DNA of 64,000 nucleotides. Source: Kocuria sp. (GTDB taxonomy: Bacteria; Actinomycetota; Actinomycetes; Actinomycetales; Micrococcaceae). A model generated the notes under the pieces. It saw nothing but the letters and a program-made list of their open reading frames with translations. It had not been told where the DNA came from and searched no databases. Below, piece by piece: positions 3,476 through 56,678 of this stretch. The position numbers were made by a program, and so were the translations under genes. Numbering within the stretch: the first letter of the stretch is position 1; every line of letters begins with the position of its first letter. The stretch spans positions 341,250 through 405,249 of the forward strand of contig JAUNHG010000001.1 in the NCBI GenBank assembly GCA_030524035.1. The letters run 5' to 3'.

Positions 3476-4270
3476 TCAGTCTGGGCGGCGCCGATACGCT
3501 AGATCGCGCGGGACTCGCCCGGCGTCGCGCGCTTTGCGTTCAAAACTGGTGTGAATGCGGCCATCCCAGCGTGGAGCCCAGCCTTGATCCGGTGCGGAAT
3601 CAGTGGCCAGTGGGCCGGGGTAGAGGTTGTCGAATCGGCCGTCGGCCTCAATGACCTGTCGCATTTGGATGGCATACTCCTGCCAGTCTGTGGCCAGCCG
3701 CCATAGCGCCCCGGGCTGAAGAACGTTTGCCACCTGAGCCACAAACTCGGGGGTGACCAGCCGTCGTTTGTGGTGTTTTTTCTTATGCCAGGGGTCTGGG
3801 AAAAATACCCATAGCTCGTGTACAGAGTCAGGTTCCAGGAAATGGTCCAGAACTTCCGGAGCATTGGCCTGGACCGCACGAACATTGTGGACGCCGTTGG
3901 CGGCGGTTTTCATGAGCAGATCGGCGAGGCCAGGGGTGTAGACCTCGACGGCCAGGAAATCGTGTTCCGGTACCTGAGCGGCCCGATAGGCCATAGCTTC
4001 TCCTAAGCCAGAACCGATTTCCACCACCAGCGGAGCCATGCGGCCGTAGGCTTCCACCTGATTGAAATGTGCGTGTTCGGCAACCGAGGTATCCGTAACG
4101 ACGCGGGGTACCTGCAGAATCCGAGTGGGAGCCCATTCTTCCCATGCTTTTTCCCGGCGCGGGGTCAGGCGGTCACCGCGCCGCACAAAAGAAAGAGGCT
4201 TGCGGCGAAATTGCTCCGGGGGTGTTTGCCCCCGTGGGATGTTCGAGCCTGCTGTGCTGTTTTCGTTCAT
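3476..4270 (-). CDS. trmB: tRNA (guanine-N7-)-methyltransferase
   Basis: TrmB places m7G at position 46 in the tRNA variable loop using S-adenosylmethionine. The 264-residue product has the SAM-binding motif VEIGSG (83-88) and the family signature FFPDPWHKKKHHKRR (156-170). The N-terminal 60 residues are basic and variable, as in corynebacterial homologues. ATG 4270 directly follows a TTG codon (4273) in the same frame; either could start translation and no strong ribosome site decides. It is divergent from the Bcr/CflA exporter gene. Confidence 0.95.
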   Translation of the reverse strand: MNENSTAGSNIPRGQTPPEQFRRKPLSFVRRGDRLTPRREKAWEEWAPTRILQVPRVVTDTSVAEHAHFNQVEAYGRMAPLVVEIGSGLGEAMAYRAAQVPEHDFLAVEVYTPGLADLLMKTAANGVHNVRAVQANAPEVLDHFLEPDSVHELWVFFPDPWHKKKHHKRRLVTPEFVAQVANVLQPGALWRLATDWQEYAIQMRQVIEADGRFDNLYPGPLATDSAPDQGWAPRWDGRIHTSFERKARDAGRVPRDLAYRRRPD

Positions 4271-4331
4271 CAACGGTTGAGTCTAGCCAGGGGTAGCCTG
4301 GGAAAGATCCCATTCCCTCACGGAGTAATTC

Positions 4332-5555
4332 ATGCCATTTCCTGCCAGAGTCCATTCAGCCTCCGGCCCGGATCGCATCCTTTTCATCCTTGCGCTGGGG
4401 ACGCTTAGTGCTGTCAGCCCCATGGCCACTGATATGTACTTGGCTTCCATGCCCGCACTGGCTGACTTTTATAGCGTGCCAGTGTCCACTATTCAGCTGA
4501 GTCTGAGTACGTACATGGTGGGCATGGCGGTAGGGCAGTTTTTGTTAGGGCCAGTGTCCGACGTCATGGGGCGCCATCGTTTGTTAGTGGGCGGAACCAC
4601 CCTGTTTTTGTTTTCCAGTTTGGGCGTCGTGTTCTCGACCGACGTGACGATGCTGCTGATATTGCGTGGTGTTCAAGGATTCGCGGGGGCAGCCGGGGTA
4701 GTGATTGCTCGCGCGATTGTGTCTGACATCGCCAGTGGGGTGGAAGCTGCCAAGCTCTACTCTCTGTTGGGCATGATTGTGTCGGTGGCCCCGATCGTGG
4801 CCCCGGTGTTAGGCGGGTTGATTGCCACGTGGGCTCCGTGGCAGGTGGTCTTCTGGGCTTTGACCGGGTTTGGTGCCTTGATGGTGGCCTGTGTGCTGTT
4901 TGTGATCCCCGAAACTTTGCCACCAAGCCTGCGTCGCCAGGATGGCTTATTGGGCAGTGTGCGTTCGGCTGCTGCAGTGGTCCGCAACCGATCATTCATG
5001 CTGTGGGCTCTGACCCTATCCCTGGGTTTTGGCTCCCTGTTTTCCTATATTTCGGCTTCTTCATTCGTCATGCAGAACGTGGTGGGGCTTTCTTCTATGG
5101 GATACAGCATTGCTTTTGCGACGGCGGCCGCGGGGTCGGTGATCGCAGGTCTGGTCAACGTCAGGTTGCTGAACCGGTTCACACCCGCGCAGATCATCAT
5201 GGTGGCATTGAGTACCCAAGCAGCGATAAACGCACTCGGTCTGGTGGGAGTGTTGATGGGTGCTCCGGTGTGGACCATCATGGTGCACACCATAGCTTCC
5301 CAGAGTTGCGTGGGATTCGTGATGGGTAACGCCATCGCTTTAGCGCAGGCGCAGGTGCCTGGGCGGGGTGGTTCCGGGTCTGCGGTTCAAGGGCTTATGC
5401 AGTTTATGGTGGGTGGAATCGTGAGTCCTCTCGCCGGGCTAGGTGGTGAGCACACGGCCGTGCCGATGAGTATTTTGATGTTCGTTCTCACGGTAGGTGC
5501 CTGGGGCACCGCTTTGCTGGCTGTAAGCGGGTCTACGGGGCAACGTTCGGAGTGA
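4332..5555 (+). CDS. MFS exporter, Bcr/CflA family
   Basis: The 407-residue protein has about twelve transmembrane helices. The N-terminal MATDMYLASMP motif (31-41), the loop 2-3 motif A GPVSDVMGRHR (73-83) and the helix 5 antiporter-like motif near GMIVSVAPIVAPVLGG identify the Bcr/CflA branch of drug:proton antiporters (bicyclomycin, chloramphenicol). It starts at ATG 4332 after a GGAG at about 4321-4324. It probably exports a small hydrophobic compound; substrate is unknown. It stands alone between trmB and the alanine symporter gene. Confidence 0.9.
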   Translation: MPFPARVHSASGPDRILFILALGTLSAVSPMATDMYLASMPALADFYSVPVSTIQLSLSTYMVGMAVGQFLLGPVSDVMGRHRLLVGGTTLFLFSSLGVVFSTDVTMLLILRGVQGFAGAAGVVIARAIVSDIASGVEAAKLYSLLGMIVSVAPIVAPVLGGLIATWAPWQVVFWALTGFGALMVACVLFVIPETLPPSLRRQDGLLGSVRSAAAVVRNRSFMLWALTLSLGFGSLFSYISASSFVMQNVVGLSSMGYSIAFATAAAGSVIAGLVNVRLLNRFTPAQIIMVALSTQAAINALGLVGVLMGAPVWTIMVHTIASQSCVGFVMGNAIALAQAQVPGRGGSGSAVQGLMQFMVGGIVSPLAGLGGEHTAVPMSILMFVLTVGAWGTALLAVSGSTGQRSE

Positions 5556-5710: not shown

Positions 5711-7222
5711 GTGAATGAGCTGATTCAGAGTCTGATGGACCAGTTCAGTGGAATCGGTACGTACTGCTTTACTGGGCGGCTTGAGGATGCGGAGCACTGC
5801 TTCGGTTCCGCTGGTGGCATCATCTGGGGGCCGTTTGTCCTGATTCCATTGTTGCTGGTGACGGGTATTTACCTCACGATTCGCTTGGGTTTTCTGCAAG
5901 TCGTTAAGATTCTTCCCGCTTTGCGGCTGGCGCTCTTTGACCGGAAAGATGAAGACGCTGCGGGCGGGGATGTTTCCCAATTCCAGGCGTTGACTACGGC
6001 ATTGGCGGCCACAGTTGGCACGGGAAACATTGTGGGAGTTGCCACTGCGATCGGTATTGGCGGCCCGGGCGCATTGTTCTGGATGTGGGTGACGGGCATC
6101 TTTGGTATGGCTTCTAAGTACTCAGAAGCTTTTTTGGGGGTCCGGTACCGCACCAAGGACGCCAAAGGTGAAGTCTCCGGTGGCCCGCAGTACTACCTCA
6201 AACGAGGTATCCCCAACGGTTTTGGCAAGTTTCTGGCCCTCTTTTTCGCGATCGCGGCGGCGCTAGCTTCTTTTGGTATCGGCAATATGACTCAGGGCAA
6301 TTCGATTGCCGGTAACGTCAACTCTTCCTTTAGCATCCCAGAATGGGTGACGGGCATCGTCTTGGCGATTATGACCATGGTGGTGCTAGTGGGTGGGATT
6401 AAGTCCATTGGTAAGGTTACTGCCGGTTTTGTGCCTGTCATGATCCTTTTCTACGTCGGTGGTGCCTTGTGGATTTTGATGGTGAATGTTGTTGATATTC
6501 CTGCGGCGCTGCAACTGATCGTCACGGATGCTTTCACCGGTACTGCAGCGGTGGGTGGTTTTGCGGGCTCTGCTCTGATCATTGCGATTCAGATGGGTGT
6601 AGCCCGCGGCATCTTCTCCAATGAATCCGGCATGGGGTCGGCTGCTATTGCTGCTGCGTCGGCACAAACAACTCACCCGGTGCGCCAGGGTTTAGTGTCG
6701 ATGACTCAGACCTTTATTGACACCATCATTGTGGTCACCTGTACAGGGCTGGTCATTATTACCACCGGTGTGTGGGAGCAGGGCGAGGCTGCAGCAAGCA
6801 CCATGACTGCTGAAGCTTTCACGCATGGTCTTCCCGGAACATGGGGGCATATGATCGTGACCATCGGTCTGGTCATGTTTGCGTATTCGACCATTCTGGG
6901 CTGGGCTTATTACGGCGAGCGGTGTGTGGAGTCCCTCGTGGGGCGCCTTGGGGTGATGCCGTACCGTGTGATCTTTTCCCTGGTGGTTTTTGTGGGGTGC
7001 TGGCTCCCGTTGGCAGCGGTATGGAACCTTGCGGATATTTTGAACGGGTTGATGGCGATTCCGAACCTTATTGGCCTGCTCTTGATGTCCGGCCTGGTGG
7101 CTCGGGAAACGCGGCATTACCTGAAGAATGATCCCAAGCTCAAGGCCGGAAAGGCTGAGATTGATGGTTTCATGCGTGGCCATGACGGTGGAATTGACAC
7201 CTATGAGGTAACTGGCCGCTAG
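5711..7222 (+). CDS. Sodium:alanine/glycine symporter (AGCS family)
   Basis: This 503-residue integral membrane protein is an alanine or glycine:cation symporter. Seen: the family stretch TVGTGNIVGVATAI (101-114), GGPGALFWMW (117-126), SEAFLGVRYR (138-147) and GVARGIFSNESGMGSA near residue 300. About ten to eleven hydrophobic helices follow. GTG 5711 is preceded by GGGGAGGAAG (5695-5703). A candidate GlxR site lies upstream, so import may be carbon-regulated. A stem-loop follows the stop codon, so it is probably a single-gene transcript. Confidence 0.93.
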   Translation: MNELIQSLMDQFSGIGTYCFTGRLEDAEHCFGSAGGIIWGPFVLIPLLLVTGIYLTIRLGFLQVVKILPALRLALFDRKDEDAAGGDVSQFQALTTALAATVGTGNIVGVATAIGIGGPGALFWMWVTGIFGMASKYSEAFLGVRYRTKDAKGEVSGGPQYYLKRGIPNGFGKFLALFFAIAAALASFGIGNMTQGNSIAGNVNSSFSIPEWVTGIVLAIMTMVVLVGGIKSIGKVTAGFVPVMILFYVGGALWILMVNVVDIPAALQLIVTDAFTGTAAVGGFAGSALIIAIQMGVARGIFSNESGMGSAAIAAASAQTTHPVRQGLVSMTQTFIDTIIVVTCTGLVIITTGVWEQGEAAASTMTAEAFTHGLPGTWGHMIVTIGLVMFAYSTILGWAYYGERCVESLVGRLGVMPYRVIFSLVVFVGCWLPLAAVWNLADILNGLMAIPNLIGLLLMSGLVARETRHYLKNDPKLKAGKAEIDGFMRGHDGGIDTYEVTGR

Positions 7223-55453: not shown

Positions 55454-55511
55454 ACCTTGTGATCGTCGCGACAGGTTTAGCCATCACCTCCAGTTGAAAG
55501 GTTCTCGGGTT

Positions 55512-55640
55512 ATGTCTAACGTAGAAAACTCTCGTAGATCGGCGTTAAAAATTTTAGGCGTGGGATTTTCAGTGGGCTTACTGACTCCGATGTTTTCTTC
55601 TTCGGCTGCTTTTGCTTCACCAAAGTCCGTAGTTGTCTGA
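55512..55640 (+). CDS. Tat-like signal peptide encoded alone (N-terminal part of an exported protein)
   Basis: The 42-residue frame is almost only a signal peptide: a polar head with twin arginines (NSRRSALKIL, 6-15), a hydrophobic core GVGFSVGLLTPMF and a signal-peptidase-like site AFA before SPKSVVV. TGA at 55638-55640 would leave a seven-residue mature peptide. The next frame, shifted by +1, begins inside the last codons and continues as a plausible exported protein. Taken together, they look like one gene with a frame change. GAAAGG lies 11 bases before ATG 55512. Confidence 0.6.
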   Translation: MSNVENSRRSALKILGVGFSVGLLTPMFSSSAAFASPKSVVV

Positions 55641-56046
55641 AGATCAACAGTTGAATGAAATTCTAGTGGCTCTTCAAAATTTACCGCCTCATCTGCGGCA
55701 CGCAGACCCTAAGACTTATCCTGATTATGAGGATGAGCTAAAGTCGCACCTGGGTGATATGACTGTAGTGGTTACGAGTCCAGGGCCCTCATCTTCTGGA
55801 ACGAATCCACTCGGTTTCGATTTCTGGAGATGTGCCGGTGAGCTTGCTGGTTTTGTTGCCACTACTGCGATACCTGTTGTAAAAATCATTGACTGGATAC
55901 GCAGGGCGCGTAGAATTTGGGGTAGTATTGCGAATATTCGATACGCGATACGTAGTGGTTCAGCCAGTCGCGAGTTGGGCGCAGAGGCGGTAGCTGTCTT
56001 GGAAGGTGTCCTGGGATTAGGTGGTGTCCGTAAGCACTGCTTTTAG
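55633..56046 (+). CDS. Exported two-cysteine protein (mature part), possible bacteriocin or toxin
   Basis: The 137-codon frame begins at TTG 55633 without a ribosome site, inside the signal-peptide frame. It reads an acidic helical part (EDQQLNEILVALQNLPPHL), a linker with VVVTSPGPSSSG (46-56) and a C-terminal half with WRC (Cys67), a hydrophobic helix LAGFVATTAIPVVKIIDWI (71-89), a basic RRARR patch and a last helix ending in HCF (Cys136). The two cysteines could form a disulphide. No family is recognised. A four-helix membrane protein follows behind a stem-loop, the layout of secreted bacteriocin plus immunity genes. Confidence 0.6.
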   Translation: MSEDQQLNEILVALQNLPPHLRHADPKTYPDYEDELKSHLGDMTVVVTSPGPSSSGTNPLGFDFWRCAGELAGFVATTAIPVVKIIDWIRRARRIWGSIANIRYAIRSGSASRELGAEAVAVLEGVLGLGGVRKHCF

Positions 56047-56060
56047 GGCGGTTTGATGTG

Positions 56061-56101
56061 GGGCTGTGGCGGTGTTGTAGCTCCAGGCGCCGCCACAGCC
56101 C
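56061..56101 (+). terminator. Stem-loop between the exported-protein gene and the membrane gene
   Basis: GGGCTGTGGCGG (56061-56072) and CCGCCACAGCCC (56090-56101) form a perfect 12-bp stem with a 17-base loop, 14 bases after the stop codon. Without a T-run, it may act as an attenuator. Confidence 0.65.
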
Positions 56102-56129
56102 TCGGCTCTAGTATGCGAGGAGATTTCCT

Positions 56130-56678
56130 GTGGTTGAATTTGGTGGGGAGCCGCATTTGAATAGTCGTATAGAATTCGAGGAGCCATGGAGGCCGCCGAG
56201 TTTCGCAGATATATTCTTCAGTCGTGTGATTATTGATGTATTTACGTACGGTTTCCCTTTGGTTATTCTTGCCTTTTTGGTAGAAAATATTTTGCCAGTG
56301 GATCGCCTGGATTTCACGATGATTTTGGGGCTAGTGATAGCTTCTATTTTAATACAGGCGCTAATTGGTTCAGTGGTTTTTGGCTGGTTCGCCCGTGCGC
56401 AAAGTCATCCAAGTCCTGGTAGTTTCTGGTTGCTGTGTAGTGATCTAGCAATAGCGTCGAGTGCTGGATTTTTGGCGGGCGGATTTTTATCCACTCCAGG
56501 TAACTGGAATTTGCCGTGGGCAATCTTCTTAAGTTCTCTGACGTTTTTTGTGGCTGTTGTGCATTCGATTTTCTGGGATAAGCAGTGGAAACAGGGGATG
56601 TCGCACGCAGAGATCCGCCGGAAAGTCGCTCAAACACAGCGGATGACAGACGACATCCTTCGAGATGGCCACAAATAG
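56130..56678 (+). CDS. Hypothetical four-helix membrane protein, candidate immunity partner
   Basis: The 182-residue protein has four membrane helices (about 32-54, 62-88, 98-119 and 128-149), a polar N-terminus of 30 residues and a charged C-terminal tail KQWKQGMSHAEIRRKVAQTQ. GTG 56130 has AGGAG (56118-56122) seven bases upstream. No family is recognised. Its position directly after an exported two-cysteine protein, and their shared A/T-richer composition, suggest a functional pair. It is convergent with the ktrA-like gene. Confidence 0.75.
   Translation: MVEFGGEPHLNSRIEFEEPWRPPSFADIFFSRVIIDVFTYGFPLVILAFLVENILPVDRLDFTMILGLVIASILIQALIGSVVFGWFARAQSHPSPGSFWLLCSDLAIASSAGFLAGGFLSTPGNWNLPWAIFLSSLTFFVAVVHSIFWDKQWKQGMSHAEIRRKVAQTQRMTDDILRDGHK

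Follow-up and report, generated by a model that had tools for sequence, protein, structure and literature searches.

The window analyzed here, a stretch of 64,000 nucleotides of Kocuria sp. (GenBank assembly GCA_030524035.1, contig JAUNHG010000001.1, positions 341,250 to 405,249), belongs to a genome of 2.3 Mb and was found to contain an island of ~1.2 kb with the order proC–A–hairpin–B–ktr, ktr being convergent. A and B denote an exported protein and a membrane protein, respectively. The G+C content of the island is 0.483 compared with a window mean of 0.580, which makes it the most A/T-rich segment of its length (of 629 equal-length segments, a single one, itself overlapping the island, has a G+C content as low). 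The GC3 of the island genes is 0.37–0.47 vs. 0.70 in proC. The A/T-richer island between proC and ktr reported in a preliminary description of this DNA was thus borne out.

The front piece of A is a signal-peptide ORF of 42 aa (55512–55640, plus strand) which starts MSNVENSRRSALKILG, possesses an RR motif and a hydrophobic core and is preceded by a ribosome-binding site, GAAAGG, at 55496–55501. The mature exported protein is encoded by an ORF of 137 aa (55633–56046, plus strand) and consists of a helical N-terminal pro-part, a loose linker and a helical C-terminal part flanked by Cys67 (codon 55831–55833) and Cys136 (codon 56038–56040), with the sequence WIRRARRIWG also present. The twin-arginine-like signal peptide, the two cysteines and the RRARR segment agree in coordinates and ORFs with what had been claimed for them. 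As the signal-peptide and mature ORFs lie in different frames and overlap by 8 bases, the A gene of the window is split; its intact relatives have signal and mature protein in one frame, whose length is 169–230 codons when the first start codon is taken as its beginning. The profile match to the window's A begins at position 34–40, the signal peptide lying in the neighboring frame, and the signal-peptide ORF itself matches the signal part of the profile of 17 A members (A5) very weakly (0.9 bits, E 0.02 in a one-sequence search). The split represents either a broken gene or a sequencing or assembly error, a programmed frameshift being an unlikely explanation. If real, it would be recent, given that the mature frame is open over 137 codons, retains both cysteines and shares 49% identity with its nearest relative (locus L110). 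Lying in two frames, the A gene of the window may yield no toxin.

Gene B (56130–56678, plus strand) has a GTG start with a ribosome-binding site, AGGAG, at 56118–56122, and encodes a 182-aa membrane protein, the proposed immunity protein, whose C-terminal helix is charged. Four hydrophobic stretches were identified in it, and a low-confidence model (pLDDT 67) has four long helices; the four-helix protein with a good ribosome site noted previously was therefore recovered. B proteins from outside Kocuria share only 10–23% identity with that of the window. In Kocuria subflava, where B is an orphan, a CAAX-protease-like membrane protein (assigned by eye; L002:2152–3057, minus strand) adjoins it on the opposite strand. 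CAAX-protease-like proteins are immunity factors in other systems.

Between the two genes lies a stem-loop (56060–56102, plus strand) with arms of 17 bp (56060–56076 and 56086–56102) and a loop of 9 nt. The A–B spacer of the window folds at −40.9 kcal/mol, a value reached by 2 of 200 shuffles (z −2.98). No T-run follows the hairpin and it is not listed by a terminator scan. A clear hairpin was seen in 3 of 11 A–B spacers, namely those of the window, L109 (spacer −33.1 kcal/mol) and L110 (−18.0 kcal/mol), the latter two both from genus g239, and none was clear in the other eight (L072–L076, L078, L081, and L116). The stem-loop is therefore strong in the window as described before, but the attenuation attributed to it is not a family trait. 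It is possible that the hairpin tunes the expression of A and B.

The interval between proC and ktr was compared among 27 genomes of the genus (L016–L042). It measures 19–136 bases in 12 genomes and 0.87–1.37 kb in 11, the window's own among them, while ktr was not seen in the fetched flank of four. On account of this variation in size, the spot seems to take up inserts and to be variable within the genus. Transposase-like ORFs (named by eye) adjoin the A loci L072, L074, and L110. The spread of the two genes in the genus is patchy, with A detected in 1 of 27 genomes and B in 2 of 27 by single-sequence searches.

Beyond the genus, a single-sequence search for A across the order (the grouping of the genome tool, which may be wider than NCBI's order) gave matches in 20 of 396 genomes at E ≤ 0.01 and in 13 of 396 at E ≤ 0.001, the own genome included. 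The weak matches G490, G643, G620, G584, G579, G604, G445, and G795 are counted with their frames unread, G490 (8.3e-4) being one of the 13. By profile search, A was found in 11 of 35 genomes of genus g239 (same family), in 12 of 297 genomes of the order and in 2 of 355 of the class, both from the own family, where the first pass scored at most 10 candidates per genome. No clear member was detected outside the order in the genome samples searched. When the phylum was searched with the single sequence, 12 of 396 genomes gave matches at E ≤ 0.01, namely the own genome and 11 others at E 0.0023–0.00996; these 11 were rejected once their frames had been read, none being A-like and several being other proteins or antisense frames. 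Searches of genome contigs, plasmids and viral contigs did not find A, nor did a search in which the window protein and two other members were compared with 50,697 phage records.

For B, the search of genome contigs gave a match only in Kocuria subflava and that of viral contigs gave none. A two-row profile (window B and Kocuria subflava B) matched 13 of 396 genomes of the order. Five of these matches are the window itself or adjoin A, and the four outside the own genome were found independently of A (G475, 2e-9; G778, 4e-6; G805, 3e-5; G658, 9e-5). The remaining eight (frames of 424–703 codons, unread) were taken as unrelated. An 11-row profile gave matches in 11 of 35 genomes of g239, with G1117 and G1125 looking unrelated on reading; L124 and L125, weak matches of this search, were judged unrelated after reading.

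Both cysteines are present in all 20 A sequences aligned, the window's among them; this count excludes other broken copies, L117 (near-identical to L119), L126, and L127. Their spacing in the window is 69 residues, and the net charge of the last 75 residues, +5 in the window, ranges from −2 to +8 among members. The signal peptides are of RR type in many members (MDRRKF, MHRRSF, MKRRNF, MNRRTA, MDRRTA, and SRRSAL) and look Sec-type in others, as judged by eye in both cases; Tat models match 2–3 of 10 members, weakly. A single-sequence model of A, of low confidence (pLDDT 64), has three N-terminal helices (3–15, 19–23, and 32–42), a loose stretch at 43–62 and further helices between the cysteines (64–78, 82–96, 99–107, 110–115, and 117–126). 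A is under purifying selection, as is B, and one genome (G475) carries four copies of A.

In total 33 A loci were read (L072–L086, L109–L120, L126–L130, and the window), of which L130 (E 5.5e-4) was set aside as a chance match. An open gene for a small membrane protein lies downstream of A in 23 of the remaining 32. In 15 of these it is a four-TM gene, directly downstream and on the same strand (window, L072–L076, L078, L081, L082, L084, L109, L110, and L114–L116), and in eight it is a different, smaller protein. Five of the smaller partners have 84–93 aa (L080, L120, L126, L127, and L128) with one or two hydrophobic stretches and an EYR...SI..A tail; in L128 the tail takes the form KAYRQAH...TIMEAI, and A has a stop while the partner is open. 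The other three (L117–L119) are membrane proteins of 68–92 aa which carry R-EYNI/R-EFNI. In L086 both A and B are broken, and in L129, where A is broken, a 62-aa ORF lies downstream which was counted in neither partner class. No membrane partner was seen downstream of A in seven loci (L077, L079, L083, L085, and L111–L113), where same-strand ORFs of at least 30 aa starting within 700 bases were considered, and for L077 and L079 also ORFs of at least 70 aa on both strands. The A gene is intact in five of the seven (L077, L079, L111, L112, and L113); downstream of A, L083 has no more than an ORF of 53 aa in which a single hydrophobic stretch was seen. The pairing of A and B is therefore real: in the co-occurrence survey, which the preliminary description had made a point of possible refutation, the two genes were found together and in an unchanged order in genera and families beyond the window's own.

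Several further genes were noted at these loci. On the reverse-strand reading of L120, two similar small partner genes lie 3.5 kb apart (5176 and 8729), the second, before which no A was found among ORFs of at least 75 aa, resembling a further orphan immunity gene. Downstream of the A copy in L079, which lacks B, an exported-looking protein of 200 aa is encoded at a distance of ~750 bases (5881–6483, plus strand). Its C-terminal part is hydrophobic, two cysteines lie close to its end, and its gene may be another bacteriocin-like one. Upstream of the A fragment of L086, the reverse-strand reading contains an exported protein with an RR signal (3597–4454) followed by a two-helix membrane protein of 104 aa (4433–4747); only the 104-aa two-helix protein was seen upstream of the A fragment of L084 (4320–4634, reverse-strand reading). 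These upstream genes may belong to a tandem cassette as a second toxin/immunity pair of a different kind.

The type of partner follows the subfamily of A. On a tree of 22 A proteins (without broken copies except the window's and without L117, near-identical to L119, with L126 and L127 included) partner type requires four changes, the minimum being three, compared with a shuffled mean of 10.0 and 0 of 200 shuffles as low, a tree in which 6 of 19 branches were starred, few being strong, with long-branch warnings and with near-copies that help the labels to cluster. The group with the EYR tail forms one clade (100/99), the third partner group is joined at 96/96 and the four-TM group alone needs three changes. 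L111, which has no partner, sits beside the four-TM member L110 (91/86), and may for this reason be a locus that lost B and kept A. The distance matrices of A and B are correlated over 11 pairs (r 0.683; 1 of 20,000 permutations as high), which partly reflects shared descent.

The two genes were found to decay unequally. Open four-TM genes were present in 19 loci, namely the 15 A–B loci together with G022, L121, L122, and L123. A is intact in 10 of them and split, truncated, stopped, reduced to a remnant or absent in nine (window, L082, L084, L114, L115, G022, L121, L122, and L123), a count taken where B is recognizable, so that decayed B is under-counted (L086 has both genes broken). Kocuria subflava (G022) has B without a usable A, L121 has B without A, L122 keeps a remnant of the end of A (E 4e-4), and L123 (G1104) has two B frames in tandem with no usable A and a weak A remnant (E 0.07). 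No broken B was seen beside an intact A among the loci read. Moreover, B genes whose A is broken or absent show purifying selection in four comparisons, for which pN/pS values are 0.25/0.87 (window and Kocuria subflava), 0.24/0.76 (L116 and L082), 0.15/0.72 (L115 and L122), and 0.25/0.82 (L109 and L121), given without a ratio as pS is near saturation. In a close pair of B genes, one of which lies beside a truncated A (L074 and L084), pN is 0.01 and pS 0.02, too few changes to judge.

Profile searches showed that no Pfam or NCBIfam family fits A or B. A matched only TAT signal models (best E 0.0041) besides scattered weak matches, and B gave weak single-member matches, the best being to DUF3382 (E 6.9e-4). 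A match of the exported part to a known family of unrelated function, which had been named earlier as grounds for rejecting the pair, was thus not found in these collections. One subfamily III partner matched PF14019 (DUF4235) at E 2e-4 with 21.7 bits, below the cut-off of 27. Sequence searches of the PDB gave nothing significant, and no paper was recognized in the literature (PMC) as describing the A/B family.

Taken from sequence comparison, the more probable interpretation is that A and B constitute a new family of bacteriocins accompanied by their cognate membrane immunity proteins, and that the window holds the remnant of such a pair. In intact relatives, A would be exported as a pre-pro-protein by a signal peptide that is Tat-like or Sec-like. 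Until a protease cuts in the loose linker, the helical pro-part would keep A harmless, and the C-terminal ~70 residues, mostly cationic and helical, would be closed by a disulfide between the first and last cysteine. Once freed, this part is predicted to act on the membranes of competing, mainly related Gram-positive bacteria, and B, located in the membrane of the producer, would block the toxin there. On unsystematic inspection, neither a processing protease nor a transporter stood out. As A is split between two frames, B has probably been retained in the window genome as an orphan immunity gene, unless the split is a sequencing error. Of the toxin/immunity pair suggested in the preliminary description, the pairing, the conserved cysteines, the decay of A with B kept and the partner types that follow the A subfamilies speak in its favor; the split A of the window and the five intact A genes lacking a partner do not, and killing is put forward as a candidate activity.

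It is unlikely, though worth weighing, that A is a toxin and B a maturation or export helper (a membrane chaperone or processing factor), as might be proposed from the five intact A genes with no adjoining B and from the failure of B to match an immunity family convincingly. Such a helper would be useless in the nine of 19 loci where B is open and A broken or missing, one of which (L123, G1104) has B frames in tandem. On balance, an immunity gene outliving its toxin gene in those nine loci would be the usual signature of a toxin/immunity pair, unlike that of a maturation helper, with the five intact partnerless A genes standing beside it. A signaling or envelope pair, with a secreted ligand, a membrane receptor and no antibacterial action, would suit an exported helical protein encoded beside a membrane protein whose tail is charged, the two being under purifying selection; its patchy spread, the different small membrane partners of diverged A subfamilies, the four A copies in G475 and the frequent decay of A alone make this decidedly improbable. 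Least credible, with very little probability, is a lysis or superinfection cassette derived from a prophage. Subfamily II does match phrog_25631, of unassigned function (L080, 3.4e-11; L120, 2e-10), but the window's A and two other members gave no match in the 50,697 phage records, neither A nor B was found in viral contigs, and the signal peptides of A indicate export. Five of 17 A members match phrog_25631 at E ≤ 0.1 and, unlike subfamily II, the A of the window is not matched.

If the bacteriocin interpretation is true, a family of disulfide-closed antibacterial proteins and its matching protection genes have gone unannotated in Kocuria and its relatives, and some A members might leave by the Tat route. 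Tat export is unusual for bacteriocins. The matched types of toxin subfamily and partner would make the specificity of immunity directly testable by partner swapping.

Among known systems, SdpC/SdpI of Bacillus subtilis pairs an exported toxin precursor, which has two cysteines, with a membrane immunity protein of multiple helices. The cysteine spacing of SdpC differs from that of A, and no SdpC model was among the Pfam/NCBIfam matches of A. Leaderless helical bacteriocins are represented by the enterocin L50/7 type. When the A5 profile was compared with PDB sequences at E up to 10, five matches were listed, the third of which was enterocin JSA (PDB 2m5z, 44 aa), which we take to be a leaderless bacteriocin of that type; the alignment, over toxin part 106–144, is weak and not significant (E 1.4), and A differs in having a signal peptide, a pro-part and two cysteines. 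EntV (enterocin O16, PDB 7ROA) was not named among the five, and no sequence similarity of A to EntV was detected in this way. Fold searches with the low-confidence A model gave nothing usable, and the absence of 7ROA from their matches proves nothing.

The closest likeness in organization is nevertheless to EntV (EF1097) of Enterococcus faecalis, so far as the available parts of its descriptions go. The EntV precursor has 170 aa, of which 136 aa are secreted, and a C-terminal peptide of 68 aa with Cys106–Cys167 (PMC9562342). In its structure three helices belong to the N-terminal part and helices 4–7 to the C-terminal part, and the cleavage site lies in a flexible stretch (PMC9562342, PMC6606811). 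A precursor of ~170 aa with a signal peptide is common to both, intact A frames having 169–230 codons, as are two cysteines that frame the C-terminal part; judging from the low-confidence model, A may also share a helical N-terminal half, a flexible linker and a helical C-terminal part with EntV. The cysteines are 61 residues apart in EntV and 69 in the A of the window. A differs in the Tat-like signal of many members and in the membrane gene which follows in most, no immunity gene being given for EntV in the parts of the two papers available (PMC9562342, PMC6606811). By analogy, and with no claim that A belongs to the EntV type, it is plausible that A works like EntV. The chances appear about even that, in the order of Kocuria, these genes represent a large superfamily, as yet undescribed, of helical bacteriocins that are closed by a disulfide and leave the cell by Tat or Sec. 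It would comprise three or more toxin subfamilies, each coupled with a small membrane immunity protein of its own and apparently distinct type (four-TM; 84–93 aa with EYR...SI..A; 68–92 aa with R-EYNI/R-EFNI), and would be an actinobacterial counterpart of EntV.
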